Of a stretch of 64,000 nt of DNA, positions 18,271 to 45,970 are shown one piece after another. A program made the translations under genes and the position numbers. The DNA is from Flavipsychrobacter sp. (GTDB taxonomy: Bacteria > Bacteroidota > Bacteroidia > Chitinophagales > Chitinophagaceae): contig JANINW010000093.1 in the NCBI GenBank assembly GCA_024508935.1, positions 12,677 to 76,676 on the forward strand. Direction: 5' to 3'. Below the pieces are notes generated by a model that worked only from the letters and a program-made list of their open reading frames with translations, was not told where the DNA came from and searched no databases. Positions within the stretch are counted from its first letter, which is position 1. Each line of letters starts with the position of its first letter.

Positions 18271-19002
18271 TTACAACAACTTGTAACGGTTAAAAAGACC
18301 TAATACCTCATCGCGGTAGGTATTGCCAATGGTTATAAGCTGGTCTTTTACACGCACACTATTCCCATCCACTTCATTTACATATTGTATGTTTACAATA
18401 TAGGATTTGTGCAGACGTATAAAACCGGAATAGGCAGCCAGTTGTTCTTCAAAGCTTTTTAAAGTACCGTGTACTATTATCTTGCCTTGTTCAGTCCATA
18501 GGCGTACATAGTCTTTCAGCCCTTCTACCAGCCATAACTGCTCCAGGTTGATGCGCACCAGTTTGCCTTCTGATTTTACAAACAGCAAATTATCTGTGAT
18601 GGCTGCCTGCACTGCATTTGCAGAAGAGGGGGTGGCGCGTAATATATCTGCCGCCTTATTTACTCCTTTCAAAAAGCGGTCGAATGCTATAGGTTTTAGC
18701 AGGTAGTCTACTGCATTCATTTCATAGCTTTCTACTGCATACTCCGCATAAGCGGTAGTGAATATCACCAGCGGTGGATCTTTCAGGGTTTTTAAGAAAT
18801 TGATGCCGGTTATCTCCGGCATATTAATGTCCAGTAAAAGCAAATCTGCTTTTTGCCCGCTCAGGAACTGGAATGCTTCCAATGCATTTTTGCATTTTCC
18901 GGCCAGTTGTAAAGACGGTACTTTGGCGATATAGGTTTCCAGTATATCCCTGGCTATAGGTTCGTCGTCTACTATCAGTACTTGTATTATGTCTTTGTTC
19001 AT
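18271..19002 (-). CDS. LytTR-family response regulator
   Basis: A 243-residue regulator. The receiver domain (1-120) has acidic residues D12/D13, phosphoacceptor D58 in LLLLDINMPEITG, and KPI near 103. The LytTR DNA-binding domain (about 135-240) has LFVKSEGKLVRINLEQLWLV and RLHKSYIVNIQYVNEVDGN. LytTR domains bind imperfect direct repeats about two helical turns apart. The gene overlaps the kinase gene at 18999 by 4 bases (ATGA), giving a tightly coupled pair. It is the only complete LytTR gene in the window. Confidence 0.95.
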   Translation of the reverse strand: MNKDIIQVLIVDDEPIARDILETYIAKVPSLQLAGKCKNALEAFQFLSGQKADLLLLDINMPEITGINFLKTLKDPPLVIFTTAYAEYAVESYEMNAVDYLLKPIAFDRFLKGVNKAADILRATPSSANAVQAAITDNLLFVKSEGKLVRINLEQLWLVEGLKDYVRLWTEQGKIIVHGTLKSFEEQLAAYSGFIRLHKSYIVNIQYVNEVDGNSVRVKDQLITIGNTYRDEVLGLFNRYKLL

Positions 19003-20111
19003 GCCAGTGAAATATTGATGGAAATGGTATAGATGTCTTCTGTTTTTGTTTCGTTGATACGGTGCTTTCCGGGATACAACAATTCCAGCCGTTTGCGCAG
19101 GTTTGTAAGGCCAATGCCGCCCACCGTATCAGCTGTTGCTACCTGCGATGCGCCTTTATATCTATTGGTACTGATAATGGTTAGTTCGTTGTTTGCAATA
19201 ACGAAGTTAAAGGCCCCTTCAATATCATCTGAAATATAGCGGGTGCCATGCTTAAAGAGGTTTTCCAGTACCGGCAGCCACAACAGCGGAGGAATGGAAT
19301 AATCCCTGTCTGCGGTAATATGAAACTTTAGCTTATTATCATTGCTCAGGCGCAGTAGTTCCAGCTCTATATAAGCGTATATTACTTCCTTCTCTTTTTC
19401 GTACGATACCTTTTCTACATTCGATTCATACAGCAGGTAGCGCAGTATGCTCGACAGTTTTAATATCGCATCGGGTGCATTATCAGCCTTCTTCAGTGCA
19501 AGCCCGTAAAGATTGTTAAGGGTATTGAAAAGGAAATGGGGGTTTATCTGGCTTTTCAGAAAGTTCAATTCTGTTTCTGTTTGTTTCTTCCTGGCTTCTT
19601 CAGCCAGTTGCTGCTGTTTGTAGTAATCATTCATGTACCATGCCATGGTAAAGATGAGCACCCACATAATATTGCCTGCGAGGTAAGTAGCCGTATCATC
19701 TAAGATATCCCCTACGCTCCATCCTTTCGTTACAGGTGCCGATACAAAACCTATTTGCTGTACATGGTCTACGTCAAAATGGTAGCCGGCCAGTTTCACG
19801 CCGATGGTATATGTCACAGATATTACGGTTACCAGCAAGCCTGCAAAAAGAAAATACAGGCCATATTTTTTCCTGGAAAGAAAACGTGGAGCCAGTACCA
19901 GGTTGTTGGTATAGAGCAATATCGCCTGCAATAAGGTACCTACTATAATAAAGGGGGCATACCAGGGCGATTGAATAATGCCATAATGCAGTTCCCGCTC
20001 GTTATTAATATTTGTATTCAATACCATGTAGAGCATGAGTGCCCATAGGTATATATTCCGCGCCAGCCGACTGCGCAATGCCTTCAATATCTTTCGAAGT
20101 GTACTATTCAT
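18999..20111 (-). CDS. LytS/YehU-type sensor histidine kinase
   Basis: A 370-residue kinase with four predicted N-terminal membrane helices (for example YAPFIIVGTLLQAILL) and a cytosolic coiled coil. The His_kinase domain has LKSQINPHFLFNTLNNLYG, with the phosphorylated histidine in NPHFLFN, and an HATPase_c with LPVLENLFKHG and GIGLTNLRKRLELLYPG. The frame reaches 20192, but the ATG at 20111 is the natural start before the first helix; 20112-20241 contains a large inverted repeat. Forms a unit with the LytTR regulator. Confidence 0.93.
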   Translation of the reverse strand: MNSTLRKILKALRSRLARNIYLWALMLYMVLNTNINNERELHYGIIQSPWYAPFIIVGTLLQAILLYTNNLVLAPRFLSRKKYGLYFLFAGLLVTVISVTYTIGVKLAGYHFDVDHVQQIGFVSAPVTKGWSVGDILDDTATYLAGNIMWVLIFTMAWYMNDYYKQQQLAEEARKKQTETELNFLKSQINPHFLFNTLNNLYGLALKKADNAPDAILKLSSILRYLLYESNVEKVSYEKEKEVIYAYIELELLRLSNDNKLKFHITADRDYSIPPLLWLPVLENLFKHGTRYISDDIEGAFNFVIANNELTIISTNRYKGASQVATADTVGGIGLTNLRKRLELLYPGKHRINETKTEDIYTISINISLA

Positions 20112-20154
20112 TGAGCATGCAAATAAGCCAGATTTCCGATCAAAGCATAGAGGG

Positions 20155-20241
20155 TTAGACCAAACTACCAAAATTTTCGACGAAATCTCCACCTGTAGCG
20201 GGTATTCGATGTTCGTCGGAAATATGAGTCGTTTGGTCTAA
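20155..20241. repeat. 30-bp-arm imperfect inverted repeat in a divergent promoter region
   Basis: Arms 20155-20184 and 20212-20241 share one centre at about 20198. The outer 11 bp (ttagaccaaac / gtttggtctaa) and the inner 7 bp (cgacgaa / ttcgtcg) match perfectly, and about 25 of 30 positions pair overall. The loop is 27 bases. It lies between the kinase gene (leftward) and the small secreted protein gene (rightward). Confidence 0.8.
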
Positions 20242-41841: not shown

Positions 41842-43425
41842 ATGAAAACAAAACTATGTATCCTGGTGGCAGTTTGTTTGATAGCTGCAACTGCTCATGC
41901 CCAAAACACTGCCGATGCAGTAAAGAGCAAACTACTGCTTACGCTTAAAAAAGAAGTAGTGCCTGCCAATCCTTCGGGCAGCAACCATACGCTTGGTATC
42001 TCCCAAATCGATGAACTTGGGGCAAGTTATCATTGCAGCAAAATACATCCGCTTAAGCAATTTGCTAAAGGTGGCGGGGTATATGTACTGACATTTGAAC
42101 AGGTAAAAGATATCAATGTTATAGCGCAGGCATACATGCGTACGGGTTTGTGTAGTGCTGCAGATATTGATGCAGTGGCTACATTGGGTGGTGCCATACC
42201 AAATGATACGCTCTTCCCAAAGCAGTGGGGCCTGCACAACGACGGAAGCTTTTCTACCGTAGCAGCAAAAGCAGGCGCCGATATTGATATGCTGCATGCA
42301 TGGGATGTAGAGCAGGGAGATAGCAATATTGTAGTAGCCGTACTGGACGCAGGCTGCAAGCTAAACCATACAGAGCTGCAGGGTCGTATATGGGTGAACA
42401 AAGCAGAGATTGCGGGTAACGGTATAGATGATGATAACAATGGTTATACAGACGATACCCTTGGCTGGAATGTGGCTTATGAAAATGCAAACCCTGCTGA
42501 CGATCATGGCCACGGTACGCACGTTGCCGGTATTATAGGTGCTAATGCAAATAATACTACCGATATAGCCGGGGTAGACCAGCATTGCAAGCTGATGATC
42601 ATAAAGAGCGCTGACAGTAATGGGTTTCTTGATTATAGCTGGTTTATAGAAGGTATCTATTACGCGGCAGATAATGGGGCGCGTATCATCAATATATCTG
42701 CTGGTGGTACGCTGAAGGCACAGGCATTTGAAGATGCTGTAAACTATGCGTTAGGCAAAGGTGTGACCATAGTAGCTGCGATGATGAATTTTGGCAGTTC
42801 GGTAAACTGTTACCCGGCAGCATACCCGGGCGTGATAGCTGTTGGTGCTACCGACCCGCAGGATGTACGCGCTACCTTCAGCAATTTCGGTAAGCACATT
42901 TCTGTATGTGCACCGGGGCATTATATCTATAGCCTGTCTCATAAATACGATAGCGCCTACGTGGTAATGAGCGGTACATCGCAGGCCACACCGCATGTAA
43001 CAGGACTGGCATCCCTGCTGCTGGCGCAAAACCCTGCGCGCACTACTGCGCAACTGAAAACACTGATAGAAACCAATGCACAGGATATGGTAGGGGATAA
43101 TAAAGATGTGCAAGGCTGGGACCAATACTATGGCTACGGACGCATTAATGCATACAGGGCGCTTACAAATGCAGTATCTGTAAAAGAGGTAAATAGGGTA
43201 AATGCCTGGAGAGTATATCCTAACCCGGCTACAGATAATATAATCATTGAAGATTGTGAAGGGGCCATGCTTAGCCTGTATGATATAACCGGCCGCCAAT
43301 TATATACTGCAACGATAAATAGCGTAAACTATACATTGCCTTTGACTACTTATACAAAGGGCAACTACATACTGCAGTTACATAACGGCAGCAAATTGCA
43401 AACTATAAAGCTGCAGTTGCAATAA
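41842..43425 (+). CDS. secreted subtilisin-like serine peptidase (S8) with T9SS sorting domain
   Basis: A 527-residue peptidase. After a signal peptide (about 1-20) and a prosequence of about 120 residues comes the catalytic domain with D169 (VVAVLDAGC), H224 (DDHGHGTHVAG), oxyanion Asn316 (AAMMNFGSS) and S380 (MSGTSQATPHVTG). A T9SS type A sorting domain (YPNPATDNIIIED) is at the C terminus. It should act outside the cell or on the surface, degrading protein for nutrition or attacking other cells. A clean terminator follows, after which the repeat array begins. Confidence 0.93.
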   Translation: MKTKLCILVAVCLIAATAHAQNTADAVKSKLLLTLKKEVVPANPSGSNHTLGISQIDELGASYHCSKIHPLKQFAKGGGVYVLTFEQVKDINVIAQAYMRTGLCSAADIDAVATLGGAIPNDTLFPKQWGLHNDGSFSTVAAKAGADIDMLHAWDVEQGDSNIVVAVLDAGCKLNHTELQGRIWVNKAEIAGNGIDDDNNGYTDDTLGWNVAYENANPADDHGHGTHVAGIIGANANNTTDIAGVDQHCKLMIIKSADSNGFLDYSWFIEGIYYAADNGARIINISAGGTLKAQAFEDAVNYALGKGVTIVAAMMNFGSSVNCYPAAYPGVIAVGATDPQDVRATFSNFGKHISVCAPGHYIYSLSHKYDSAYVVMSGTSQATPHVTGLASLLLAQNPARTTAQLKTLIETNAQDMVGDNKDVQGWDQYYGYGRINAYRALTNAVSVKEVNRVNAWRVYPNPATDNIIIEDCEGAMLSLYDITGRQLYTATINSVNYTLPLTTYTKGNYILQLHNGSKLQTIKLQLQ

Positions 43426-43444
43426 CCGGAATAAGTATAGCGAA

Positions 43445-43477
43445 AGCCGTAAGTATACAATGCTTACGGCTTTTTTT
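43445..43477 (+). terminator. intrinsic terminator of the S8 peptidase gene
   Basis: A 9-bp stem agccgtaag / cttacggct with loop tatacaatg and seven T. Confidence 0.88.
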
Positions 43478-43488
43478 GTTTGGAATAA

Positions 43489-43583
43489 TTCACCGCGGAA
43501 AACATCCTGTTCACCGCTATGCCGCAGGATTATAAAGGTTTACCTCATAAATTTTTCAGGTGTATAAAACCATTCTACTTTTG
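43489..43583 (+). promoter_or_regulatory. array promoter 1 with four half-sites
   Basis: Half-sites TTCACCG (43489), TTCACCG (43510), TATGCCG (43518) and TTTACCT (43539) precede the -7 box TACTTTTG (43576-43583). The second half-site starts 66 bp before the box, as in all four array promoters. The transcript would run into the hairpin at 43695. Confidence 0.7.
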
Positions 43584-43694
43584 TTATGTAATCAAGAGAA
43601 CAAAACAAACAAGCAAGTATAGAATCGGGGCTGGGGATGTGAAGAAAAGAATAGTGATCATAGCATAATATCCCCAAAAGTTTAGGTGGTTTAG

Positions 43695-43722
43695 AGCGGA
43701 GGTTTCGTACCTCCGCTATTTT
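43695..43722 (+). terminator. array hairpin 1
   Basis: A 9-bp stem agcggaggt (43695-43703) / acctccgct (43709-43717) with loop ttcgt and a weak T tail (ATTTTCT). It lies 26 bases before the ATG of the mini-gene at 43744, so it may attenuate rather than fully end transcription. Confidence 0.7.
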
Positions 43723-43743
43723 CTAAAAAAAGCAAAGCATACT

Positions 43744-43956
43744 ATGACAAACAAATATAAGCATAACGGGAATGGTATCCTGGCAAAGCTGGATTATGAT
43801 AGCGATTTCGCACAGGGGCAATATTTGCAGTCTGCTCTTTATCCTAAAGACGGGGCTTTCCGGGTGAGTTATTATGTTTTTCATGCAAAGTATAAGAAGG
43901 CGGAATTGATAGCAGCATCGTTTTGTCCCTATATGGCGAATGCAGCCCAGGCGTAA
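43744..43956 (+). CDS. array mini-protein A1
   Basis: A 70-residue protein starting MTNKYKHNGNGILAKLDYDS. It shares a core with the protein at 44274: Y-x(3)-F-x(2)-G-Q-x(2)-Q-x-A-x(2)-P-x-D-G-x-F-x-V-S-Y-Y, and a late K-x-E-L and Cys-x-Tyr. Neither a signal peptide nor a membrane helix is evident. No known family recognised. It lies just after array hairpin 1, and its own terminator is at 44039. Confidence 0.6.
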   Translation: MTNKYKHNGNGILAKLDYDSDFAQGQYLQSALYPKDGAFRVSYYVFHAKYKKAELIAASFCPYMANAAQA

Positions 43957-44038
43957 GTCTCGTATAAAAGATGTTGAACAAAAGCAACAAACAAAAAGAA
44001 TAGTCGTTCAAACAAAACAAATAAGTGGTGTGTGTTAG

Positions 44039-44066
44039 GCAGGAAGCAGTAGCTTCCTGCTTTTTT
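44039..44066 (+). terminator. terminator after mini-gene A1
   Basis: A 9-bp stem gcaggaagc / gcttcctgc with loop agta and six T. It is preceded by GTGTTAGG, similar to the GTTAGG before the array hairpins. Confidence 0.85.
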
Positions 44067-44080
44067 GTGTTTCAAAGGTT

Positions 44081-44175
44081 TTTACCGCGGAATATATAAG
44101 TTTCACCGATTCACCTCAACAAGTTTATAGTTGACCTCTTAGATTTTATTACAGTAATGTGCCGGTGTACTTTTG
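44081..44175 (+). promoter_or_regulatory. array promoter 2 with four half-sites
   Basis: Half-sites TTTACCG (44081), TTCACCG (44102), TTCACCT (44110) and TTGACCT (44131) precede TACTTTTG (44168-44175). Spacing 21-8-21, and 66 bp from second half-site to box. Confidence 0.7.
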
Positions 44176-44232
44176 GGTTGTTGATCATAACAGTCAAACA
44201 AACAACAAGTAGTATTCTCGGTTAGGTGGTAG

Positions 44233-44263
44233 AGCGGAGGTTTCGTACCTCCGCTATTTTTTT
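44233..44263 (+). terminator. array hairpin 2
   Basis: A perfect 9-bp stem (44233-44241 / 44247-44255), loop ttcgt, seven T. It lies 65 bases after the start of -7 box 2 and 10 bases before the ATG of mini-gene A2. Confidence 0.8.
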
Positions 44264-44273
44264 AATCCTTTTT

Positions 44274-44501
44274 ATGATAAAGCCGGCATTGATTAGGAAA
44301 CTGAAGCAACTGAATAAGAATAATGGCATCATTATACGTGTAGGCTACGGTTATAATTTTAATCCCGGTCAAATAACACAAAATGCAATTCATCCTGCAG
44401 ATGGTGGTTTCCATGTCAGCTATTATACTGTAAGTGTTACTGAGAATAAAATAGAGCTAGTGGGTAAGTTATGTTGTTCATACCCATCTTTCATAGCTTA
44501 A
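44274..44501 (+). CDS. array mini-protein A2
   Basis: A 75-residue protein starting MIKPALIRKLKQLNKNNG, paralogous to the product at 43744: NGIIIRVGYGYNF, PGQITQNAIHPADGGFHVSY and KIELVGKLCCSYP match the same positions. Roughly 40% of the aligned core is identical by eye. The start at ATG 44274 gives a basic N-terminal helix; the longer frame upstream would run through the hairpin. Function unknown; conservation between the copies argues for selection. Confidence 0.62.
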   Translation: MIKPALIRKLKQLNKNNGIIIRVGYGYNFNPGQITQNAIHPADGGFHVSYYTVSVTENKIELVGKLCCSYPSFIA

Positions 44502-44537
44502 TGGTCTTGTTGTATGGAGATTGTTGAAAAGATGATA

Positions 44538-44631
44538 TTCACCGAAGAAAATAAATATTCACCGCTTCACCGCATGAATAAAGGCTTTGGCCTCATATAT
44601 TTTCCGGCTATTCATTACCTGTCTATTTTTG
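44538..44631 (+). promoter_or_regulatory. array promoter 3 with four half-sites
   Basis: Half-sites TTCACCG (44538), TTCACCG (44558), TTCACCG (44566) and TTGGCCT (44587) precede TATTTTTG (44624-44631). The first spacing is 20; the others are 8 and 21. Again 66 bp from second half-site to the box. Confidence 0.7.
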
Positions 44632-44728
44632 TTTGGTAATCAGGTATAGCGATCAGGGCATTGGAGGGATAAAGTAAATTATTAAGATTTTAGTGTGTCG
44701 AGAATTTCATTCTCGGTTAGGTGGTTAG

Positions 44729-44759
44729 AGCGGAGGTTTCGTACCTCCGCTATTTTTTT
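44729..44759 (+). terminator. array hairpin 3
   Basis: Identical stem and loop to hairpin 2 (44729-44737 / 44743-44751), followed by A and seven T. A 7-bp hairpin (44699-44715) lies just upstream. Confidence 0.85.
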
Positions 44760-44791
44760 GTCGCTGCTATTTAATGAATTGTGCTACCGGA

Positions 44792-44886
44792 TTTACCTAT
44801 AAAAATTGAGCTTTTACCGCTTTGCCTCATGAAAATCTACATTCGCCTCATATATTTTTCTAAGCACATTGCTGTTGATATTTTTG
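44792..44886 (+). promoter_or_regulatory. array promoter 4 with four half-sites
   Basis: Half-sites TTTACCT (44792), TTTACCG (44813), TTTGCCT (44821) and TTCGCCT (44842) precede TATTTTTG (44879-44886). Spacing 21-8-21 and 66 bp. It drives the 57-residue gene at 44921. Confidence 0.68.
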
Positions 44887-44920
44887 AATTGTTGATCATT
44901 TCACAATTAAAACGAGGATC

Positions 44921-45094
44921 ATGAGGAACAATAACAAAACAATAGTTGCACGTTCATACAATTCATTTGTGCACGCAATAAAGAATATAGTAGAAGGTAT
45001 AAAGTATGGCATAAGCGGCAACACTCAGCCTAAGGCCATGCAGCCGGTGAAATTGTATGCGTATCAGGTTGTGGATAATAAAAGGAATTTGTGA
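44921..45094 (+). CDS. array mini-protein B
   Basis: A 57-residue frame (MRNNNKTIVARSYNSFVHAI ... VVDNKRNL) with an unusually good ribosome site (aacgaggatc) directly before the ATG. It lies between array promoter 4 and hairpin 4 and is not homologous to A1/A2. A mixed basic peptide without signal or membrane segment. No family known. The ribosome site and placement are the main evidence that it is translated. Confidence 0.55.
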   Translation: MRNNNKTIVARSYNSFVHAIKNIVEGIKYGISGNTQPKAMQPVKLYAYQVVDNKRNL

Positions 45095-45150
45095 GTAGCA
45101 AAAGCATATAAATAAGGGATAAGTTAAGTATTTCAAGGTTAGGTGGTTAG

Positions 45151-45177
45151 AGCGGAGGTTTGTACCTCTGCTTTTTT
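45151..45177 (+). terminator. array hairpin 4
   Basis: Stem agcggaggt / acctctgct (one G-U), loop ttgt, six T. It is preceded by GGTTAGGTGGTTAG like hairpin 3, and ends the transcript of the 57-residue gene. Confidence 0.85.
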
Positions 45178-45325
45178 ATTGATAATTGAATAGTTAAACT
45201 GGTTATTAATCACTCATATATAACATGATACAAACTGGTATGTTTTTCGCTTTTTGAAAATTAAATTTATACCCGGATTGTATTATTGCACCGTACTTAT
45301 TTGTTTAAAGCAAAATCAGGTAGTA

Positions 45326-45970
45326 ATGGATAAAGCACCTACAAACAGTAATAAGACATTGCCCATACTGATAGCTATCGCAGGATGGTTTGCGCTAACA
45401 GCACAATTTTATCTTCTTCTCGATAACCGCACAGCCCCTGTTGGCGAAACAATACTGCGCTATTTTGGCTTCTTTACAATACTCACCAATCTGCTGGTAG
45501 CATTAAGCCTTTCATACCTTGTATTAGCACCTGATAGCCGGCCGGGGCGTTTTTTTGCTAAAGCAACTACACTTACGGCCATTACCGTTTATATTGTAGT
45601 GGTTGGCTTGGTGTACAATACCGTTCTTCGTTTTCTTTGGGCGCCGCAGGGACTGCAAAAACTGGTCGACGAATTCCTGCATAGCATTATACCGGTCCTG
45701 TTCCTGCTGTACTGGATAATCTATGTACCTAAGCGGCACTTGCAGTGGCGGCTGTTATGGGGATGGCTGGTTTATCCCCTGATATACTGTATATATACAT
45801 TGCTACGAGGCACTGCATCTGGTTTTTATCCCTATCCTTTTATGAATGTTACCGAACTGGGTTACCCGGCTGTTTTGCGCAACTGTTTGTATGTTACTCT
45901 CCTGTTCCTCTTCTTTAGTGTGCTGTTTATAGGGTTGGGTAAGCTGGGCGCTAAAAAAGTGAAATACTGA
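45326..45970 (+). CDS. Pr6Pr-family membrane protein
   Basis: A 214-residue six-helix membrane protein. It matches the Pr6Pr/FAR-17a-like family: RYFGFFTILTNLLVALSLSY, LVDEFLHSIIPVLFLLYWII, VYPLIYCIYTLLRG and PYPFMNVTELGYPAVLRNC. Conserved histidine, glutamate and asparagine lie inside the membrane region. The eukaryotic AIG1/ADTRP relatives are threonine hydrolases for fatty-acid esters of hydroxy fatty acids; the bacterial role is unknown. The ATG at 45326 is used; the frame opens 72 bases earlier. Confidence 0.85.
   Translation: MDKAPTNSNKTLPILIAIAGWFALTAQFYLLLDNRTAPVGETILRYFGFFTILTNLLVALSLSYLVLAPDSRPGRFFAKATTLTAITVYIVVVGLVYNTVLRFLWAPQGLQKLVDEFLHSIIPVLFLLYWIIYVPKRHLQWRLLWGWLVYPLIYCIYTLLRGTASGFYPYPFMNVTELGYPAVLRNCLYVTLLFLFFSVLFIGLGKLGAKKVKY

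Follow-up and report, generated by a model that had tools for sequence, protein, structure and literature searches.

Four copies of one promoter-like unit follow each other on the forward strand of a Flavipsychrobacter sp. genome, and the question that they raise is what class of regulator they answer to and what they produce. The units lie at positions 43489 to 45178 of a stretch of 64,000 nucleotides (assembly GCA_024508935.1, contig JANINW010000093.1), which is called the window here. A sequence-only reading had described them as the tandem targets of one transcription factor, driving small RNAs and mini-proteins, and as belonging to no family that it knew. The results presented below indicate that the array probably consists of transcription units that are activated by a LytTR response regulator, end in near-identical terminators and yield putative RNAs.

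Anatomy of the array

The anatomy was computed directly, and re-reading of the coordinates confirmed that each of the four units has four half-sites (Table 1). With the start of the second half-site as position 1, the half-sites start at -20 (-19 in unit 3), 1, 9 and 30, that is, in steps of 21 (20 in unit 3), 8 and 21 bp, and in every unit the distance from the start of the second half-site to that of the TAnnTTTG (-7) box is 66 bp. Counted from this box, the half-sites stand at box-87, -66, -58 and -37 and form two 21-bp pairs whose inner sites abut. Read as an 8-mer, their consensus is approximately TTYACCKC. Four of the 16 deviate from, or border on, TTYRCCKM: the third of unit 1 (TATGCCGC), the fourth of unit 2 (TTGACCTC) and the fourth of unit 3 (TTGGCCTC) are true mismatches, and the fourth of unit 4 (TTCGCCTC) is an edge case that still fits. 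Over the four units, pairwise identity is 195/240 (81%) in the half-sites and box and 99/279 (35%) in the remaining spacer. The earlier statement that the spacer is poorly conserved is correct apart from box-28 to -21, where a previously unlisted TAnATTTT stretch has an identity of 43/48 (90%). The four units are diverged tandem copies in which the sites and their distances have been retained.

A search of the 3.76-Mb genome with the four-unit pattern, allowing three or fewer mismatches, returned four matches, which are the array itself; the other strand and a backward control returned none. Such a search is circular for the four units and informative for the absence of further ones, and it gives no sign that the 66-bp pattern is common by chance. 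The array is real and not a chance arrangement. The full-architecture pattern had matches in 0/14 congeners.

A motif common to LiaF-type operons

The simpler pair TTYRCCKM-N13-TTYRCCKM has 63 matches in 15 genomes of the genus, as compared with 24 for a backward control. Four of these are in the array, 53 others were read and six were left unread. Among the 53, six lie elsewhere and 47 precede genes of five classes. The liaF-type class has 18 matches, is found in 14/14 congeners and has direct repeats of the TTTACCGA type with a period of 21 bp (in five genomes the class was assigned from translations rather than by the classing script). The other classes are CarboxypepD_reg/TonB-type (TonB-receptor-type) genes (12 matches in 11/15 genomes, the array's own genome included), sppA (10 matches, 8 genomes), ABC exporter genes (4 matches in 4 genomes, again including its own) and lemA (3 matches, 3 genomes). 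A fourth lemA case came from a relaxed pattern only, which consists of the last two half-sites and the box with three mismatches. Some matches of the relaxed pattern had the look of promoters; seven were read and stand at gene starts, the genes being those of LemA, SppA, an ABC exporter and a protein with an AIM24 domain. The AIM24-domain target was read at a single site (L027), and a similar site is listed in genome G014, where the gene was unread. Pfam searches of example targets confirmed the domains S49, AIM24, LemA, TPM, ABC and CarboxypepD_reg/TonB. Together with the liaF-type operon, sppA, lemA and the genes for the ABC exporter and TonB-type proteins make up a candidate regulon for envelope stress in Chitinophagaceae-like Bacteroidota. 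Among the papers listed in searches of the open-access literature, which mostly lacks subscription journals, none was seen to describe a regulon of this sort in the phylum. The outcome is a testable regulon for the LiaF-LytTR system, with a motif, a spacing rule and target genes.

Two further occurrences of the motif may be mentioned. At locus L083 (G007:C6:217542), a TTTACCGA/TTTACCTA pair lies in a long stretch with no gene close downstream and is possibly a further motif-driven small RNA. Approximately 12.5 kb past the right end of the window (L114, 12477-13188), three half-sites precede a 201-residue gene that has no Pfam match.

Where it was read, the liaF-type operon encodes a LiaF-TM protein, a DUF4288 protein, a LytS-type His_kinase and a Response_reg+LytTR protein. 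Such operons with a conserved three-half-site promoter were noted at L112 (3100-6090) and at L116-L141. The array's own genome has the operon on contig C18 with the motif upstream, and its domains (PF22570 at 63.7 bits, PF06580, and PF00072 with PF04397) are those of a LiaF-TM protein together with a two-component system. Twenty-six liaF-type loci were compared, 13 of which are the congeners again and 13 are others including Taibaiella, Flavipsychrobacter and Bacteroidota metagenome-assembled genomes. A strict half-site at box-59 and another at box-80 and/or box-38 are present in 24/26; the two exceptions are a weaker version (L136) and a locus mis-started by the script (L129). The half-sites of these promoters stand at box-80, -59 and -38, CC is kept in 25/25 promoters at each of the three, and TT at box-23/-22 is likewise kept in 25/25. 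The 66-bp rule, which holds in all units of the array, is the local form of a wider one that places the last half-site 37-39 bp upstream of the box.

LytTR sites have been described in print as two repeats of 9-11 nt with a spacer of 11-13 nt (PMC4847170), and autoregulated LytTR operons as being headed by direct repeats 12 bp apart (PMC6193735). In the array, the two 8-mers of a pair have a spacing of 21 bp throughout units 1, 2 and 4, and in unit 3 one pair has 20 bp. The motif also precedes a LytTR gene in the liaF-type operons of its own genome and of relatives, with a different last base of the half-site. Because the published form of the sites agrees and the motif heads a LytTR operon, the half-sites are most likely those of a LytTR response regulator, a class that can be named from the sequence with fair confidence. 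The array therefore most likely belongs to a described kind of site, contrary to the first impression of it.

The relation between the array and these operons was examined with a half-site matrix derived from 25 of the 26 liaF-type promoters, none of them from the array's own genome. The matrix was combined with a box score and run over both strands of the window. All 12 of the best composite matches fell in the array (30.6 to 17.4), as compared with 14.7 for the best match outside it. With 200 column-permuted matrices, on average 1.36 of the 12 best were in the array, with a maximum of 11, and 0/200 reached 12. In 133 kb of the genome, picked partly for containing regulon members, the liaF operon ranked first (34.0), followed by a TonB-type gene (32.9), unit 4 (30.6), the gene at L114:12583 (29.0), unit 2 (25.4), the ABC exporter (22.6), unit 1 (22.1), unit 3 (20.3), a kinase/LytTR pair on contig C37 (19.6) and a site on the minus strand of L103 (17.8). 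At the TAnnTTTG boxes themselves, the scores are 23.5 (unit 4), 22.1 (unit 1), 20.4 (unit 2) and 20.3 (unit 3). The half-site, the 21-bp period and the distance to the box thus recur before orthologous genes in relatives, and the matrix built from promoters of other genomes locates the array; both points support the idea of one transcription factor with tandem targets.

Predicted transcripts and mini-proteins

A near-identical hairpin follows each of the four promoters, as had been claimed, with box-to-stem distances of 119, 65, 105 and 272 bp in units 1-4. In each unit, the hairpin together with its T-tract resembles a Rho-independent terminator; the hairpin of unit 4 has a loop one base shorter and a G-U pair. 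The hairpin occurs in four copies in the genome, and positions 43400-45300 contain seven terminator-like sites as compared with 1.1 in shuffled sequences. In an alignment of the 3' ends, 37 of 50 columns are invariant, including much of an unpaired stretch, GGTTAGGTGG(T)TAGAGC, and the leaders 5' of this conserved part align poorly among units. Such near-invariance of an unpaired stretch that a terminator does not need suggests a role at the RNA level or gene conversion. If transcription starts approximately 7 nt past the box, the predicted RNAs of units 1-4 are about 134, 80, 121 and 286 nt in length. Folding z-scores are -2.16, -1.87 and -3.22 for units 1-3. From the combination of promoter and terminator we infer small RNAs, and this part of the earlier description stands on that footing.

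The stretch GGTGGTTAGAGC in the 3' module is reminiscent of a tRNA D-arm. The idea of a tRNA-derived module was dropped: the window contains no tRNA according to ARAGORN, and the Rfam matches with E values up to 10 include no tRNA family. Between mini-ORF 1 and unit 2 (43960-44066), a leader-like stretch (TGTTGAACAAAAGCAACAAACAAA) with GTTAGG has a terminator of its own and may be the decayed remnant of a fifth unit; a sub-threshold Rfam match in the same interval is CyaR-like (24.1 bits, E 0.15).

The mini-proteins that had been proposed for the units are supported for two of them. Homologous open reading frames (ORFs) follow the hairpins of units 1 and 2, starting 19-27 nt past them, and 22/54 residues are identical between the two. 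Identical bases by codon position number 32, 32 and 19 of 54, as real genes would show, and this coding constraint was computed directly. The ORF of unit 4 precedes its hairpin, and a relation to mini-ORFs 1 and 2 did not emerge from comparison; in unit 3 no comparable ORF was seen in the ORF reading. Searches of Pfam, PHROGs and NCBIfam gave nothing above the cut-off for the mini-proteins (best E 0.014), and mini-ORF 2 had no match among plasmids or phages. A pattern search of genome contigs confirmed no homologues, the patterns being poorly chosen. An AlphaFold model of mini-ORF 2 (pLDDT 57.2, pTM 0.40) is too poor for a structure search.

The coding constraint and the position of mini-ORFs 1 and 2 just past the hairpins would also be expected if the units were ordinary mRNA promoters for mini-proteins and the hairpins were attenuators or plain terminators with no RNA function. 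The location of the unit 4 ORF between promoter and hairpin and the weak T-tract of unit 1 point the same way. Such an explanation is unlikely, because unit 3 has no such ORF, a strong hairpin precedes any ORF in units 1-3, and the pre-hairpin stretch is near-invariant while being unneeded by a terminator. Conservation of the parts bears on two further explanations. The units could be a DNA decoy whose 16 clustered half-sites titrate the regulator, with transcripts as by-products; the sites are dense and doubled, lineage-specific and associated with no known product homologues. The box, the -33 element and the terminators are as well kept as the half-sites, which makes a decoy very improbable. 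A functionless relic of tandem duplication would agree with the paralogy of the units, the lack of an ORF in one of them and the absence of relatives elsewhere. It can hardly be reconciled with 81% identity in the elements against 35% in the spacer, or with third codon positions that diverged while first and second were kept, and is given the least credence here.

Table 1. Positions of promoters, conserved 3' modules and reading frames of the array in the window
Feature	Position	Strand	Details
Unit 1 promoter	43489..43583	+	half-sites 43489, 43510, 43518, 43539; TAAATTTT 43548-43555; TACTTTTG box 43576-43583
Unit 1 conserved 3' module	43676..43724	+	putative terminator hairpin 43695-43717, T-tract weak
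Mini-ORF 1, 70 aa	43744..43956	+	3' of unit 1 hairpin
Separate terminator-like hairpin 3' of mini-ORF 1	44037..44066	+	
Unit 2 promoter	44081..44175	+	half-sites 44081, 44102, 44110, 44131; TAGATTTT 44140-44147; TACTTTTG box 44168-44175
Unit 2 conserved 3' module	44215..44261	+	putative terminator hairpin 44233-44255
Mini-ORF 2, 75 aa	44274..44501	+	homologous to mini-ORF 1
Unit 3 promoter	44538..44631	+	half-sites 44538, 44558, 44566, 44587; TATATTTT 44596-44603; TATTTTTG box 44624-44631
Unit 3 conserved 3' module	44710..44757	+	putative terminator hairpin 44729-44751
Unit 4 promoter	44792..44886	+	half-sites 44792, 44813, 44821, 44842; TATATTTT 44851-44858; TATTTTTG box 44879-44886
Unit 4 ORF, 57 aa	44921..45094	+	5' of unit 4 hairpin
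Unit 4 conserved 3' module	45132..45178	+	putative terminator hairpin slightly changed

The array is flanked by a Pr6Pr-family membrane protein gene (45254-45970), which has no match in 14 congeners; the neighbourhood of the array may be lineage-specific.

Proposed mechanism

In the proposed mechanism, a LytTR regulator would bind the 21-bp-spaced direct repeats formed by sites 1 and 2 and by sites 3 and 4, as two abutting pairs, and would assist RNA polymerase at the -33 element (TTTT, box-24 to -21), which is weak. The TAnnTTTG promoter, 37 bp past the last half-site, would thus be activated. Units 1-3 would give RNAs of approximately 80-135 nt, and unit 4 one of approximately 286 nt with its 57-codon ORF. 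All four would end at the near-identical Rho-independent terminators that the common GGTTAGGTGG(T)TAGAGC precedes. Transcription that runs past the terminators of units 1 and 2 could lead to expression of the two orphan mini-proteins, which are homologous to each other. Envelope stress is the probable signal, given that in relatives the motif precedes the LiaF-type LytTR operon and genes for SppA, LemA, the ABC exporter and TonB-receptor-type proteins.

Several results weigh against this mechanism. The units are paralogous, and their agreement does not amount to four independent observations. The relaxed pattern in the genus gave 82 matches against 76 for its control, which is near-equal. The hairpin module had 0 matches in 58 relatives, and a search of 293 further genomes of the family with a limit of E 0.001 gave no homologues of the mini-proteins. 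As the full architecture, too, was unmatched outside the genome in the searches made, the transcribed part is without comparative support. Rfam 15 gave no match at gathering score and 11 sub-threshold matches of no consistent kind. A seed-target test over 123 start regions from part of the genome gave a best duplex of -16.3; the best duplexes of 30 shuffled seeds averaged -17.0, and 22 of these seeds did as well or better. The last base of the half-site is C in 13/16 array sites and A in 11/12 hand-picked liaF-type sites of the same genome, and because of this difference the regulator of the liaF operon may not be the binder. In units 2 and 4, the matrix scores the TAnATTTT box above the TAnnTTTG box.

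The scores just mentioned (30.6 in unit 4 and 25.4 in unit 2) are among the points for regarding each unit as two overlapping LytTR promoters, with sites 1 and 2 serving TAnATTTT and sites 3 and 4 serving TAnnTTTG. Moreover, TAnATTTT starts 38 bp past the second half-site in all four units, which is the liaF geometry. The stretch lacks the final G, and its TTTT can be explained as the -33 element of the downstream box, as TT at box-23/-22 is kept in every one of the 25 liaF-type promoters. Two promoters per unit are thus regarded as improbable, and a single LytTR-activated promoter is preferred.

Candidates for the LytTR protein that may bind

The regulator encoded on C18, the one on C37, or both may bind the array. 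The genome contains 10 LytTR domains. A scan of the 10 loci, approximately 1.5 kb on each side, found no 21-bp pair; its range stops short of the promoter sites on C18 and C37. Within the window, a LytTR regulator is encoded at 18271-20192 together with an adjacent same-strand 397-residue ORF that matches kinases, and the regulator has matches of 57-68% identity in 12/14 congeners. This regulator and its partner were rejected as the binder, because the 330 bp that precede them contain no two half-sites spaced by 21 bp.

On contig C37 (L101, 3497-5418), a LytS-type kinase/LytTR pair is preceded by TTCACCGC at relative positions 0 and 21 and TTCACCTC at 39, that is, by three TTCACCKC half-sites. 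It is conceivable, at somewhat less than even chances, that this pair is a separate system with TTCACCKC half-sites and binds the array in place of the liaF-operon regulator. The last base is C in 3/3 of its sites and 13/16 of the array as compared with 1/12 of liaF-type sites (Fisher p 9e-5, for hand-picked sites that are non-independent). At 11 loci with matching kinases in other genomes, none had the 21-bp pair in the 330 bp read upstream, and the array is absent elsewhere in the same way. On the other side, the -7 box on C37 is poor (CAACCTTG), the third site runs into the core promoter, approximately 180-220 bp separate the sites from the kinase gene, and the matrix from liaF promoters still picks out both the array and the C37 pair. 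A fuller proposal is more doubtful. In it, a stress module specific to this lineage is assumed: the C37 pair, its site preference shifted to TTCACCKC, would drive tandem sibling small RNAs with a common 3' module together with a new mini-protein family, the doubled dimer sites would give a steep response, and the array would be a LytTR-controlled multicopy small-RNA locus in Bacteroidota.

In LytTR regulatory systems (LRS), which work without a phosphorelay, the LytTR regulator is paired with a membrane protein in place of a receiver domain and a kinase. The C18 and C37 regulators have Response_reg domains and adjoin His_kinase genes, which places both outside that type.

Comparison with known systems

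The sites resemble those of LytTR regulators of the YpdB and HdrR type in having direct repeats of approximately 8-9 bp with a spacer of 12-13 bp, close upstream of a core promoter, and in heading, among other genes, an operon that encodes a LytS-type kinase with a REC-LytTR protein. They differ in that the array has two abutting pairs per promoter, repeated four-fold, and a TAnnTTTG core of the Bacteroidota kind. The near-abutting arrangement is not wholly private to the array, as one of the 25 liaF-type promoters (L127) has sites 9 bp apart. The regulon is similar to LiaFSR and PSP-like systems in that a LiaF-TM protein is encoded with a two-component system and sppA and lemA are among the motif-bearing genes; it has a LytTR regulator and a LytS-type kinase in place of LiaR/LiaS. 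In Firmicutes, LytTR has been reported in operons with LiaI-LiaF-TM and Toastrack domains (PMC11237479).

Among small RNAs described in Bacteroidota, the FopS family of Bacteroides thetaiotaomicron consists of paralogous small RNAs that are raised by bile salts, with the regulator that acts under such membrane-active stress left open in that account (PMC11697453). FopS and the array have in common the phylum, paralogous short RNAs (putative in the array) and a 3' terminator hairpin. The common part of FopS is 5' and its members have canonical promoters at many loci (PMC11697453), whereas the common part of the array is 3' and confined to one locus. None of the 11 sub-threshold Rfam matches bore the name FopS, the presence of a FopS model in the Rfam copy being unchecked. 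For this putative small-RNA locus, in another part of Bacteroidota than FopS, the class of the transcription factor can be named from sequence.

The closest kinds by anatomy appear to be streptococcal csRNAs and Listeria LhrC. The csRNAs were predicted from a regulator-activated intergenic promoter followed by a terminator, and northern blots detected the ones that were probed (PMC3091779). A putative intergenic terminator likewise follows each array promoter at a short distance (65-119 bp in units 1-3 and, in unit 4, 272 bp). Like the CiaR-dependent csRNAs (PMC3091779), the array would have a number of short transcripts that end in terminators and are controlled by a single two-component system. 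The regulator family and the bacteria differ, the array is in tandem at one locus, and the comparison is one of description. The small RNAs LhrC1-5 exist in several copies and depend on a two-component system when the cell envelope is under stress (PMC4132741), and the array would combine the same two traits. LhrC has CU-rich target-binding sites, of which none were recognised in the array, and another regulator; again the comparison is one of description. By its anatomy, the array would work like csRNAs and LhrC, and by Rfam it is a member of no described RNA family. What is new is that one Bacteroidota genome among those searched combines tandem promoters of the LytTR type, each with its sites doubled, with orphan mini-proteins and a putative set of sibling small RNAs. 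Overall, the type of regulator is familiar, and the target set, short RNAs and two orphan mini-proteins that are probably switched on by it, is not.

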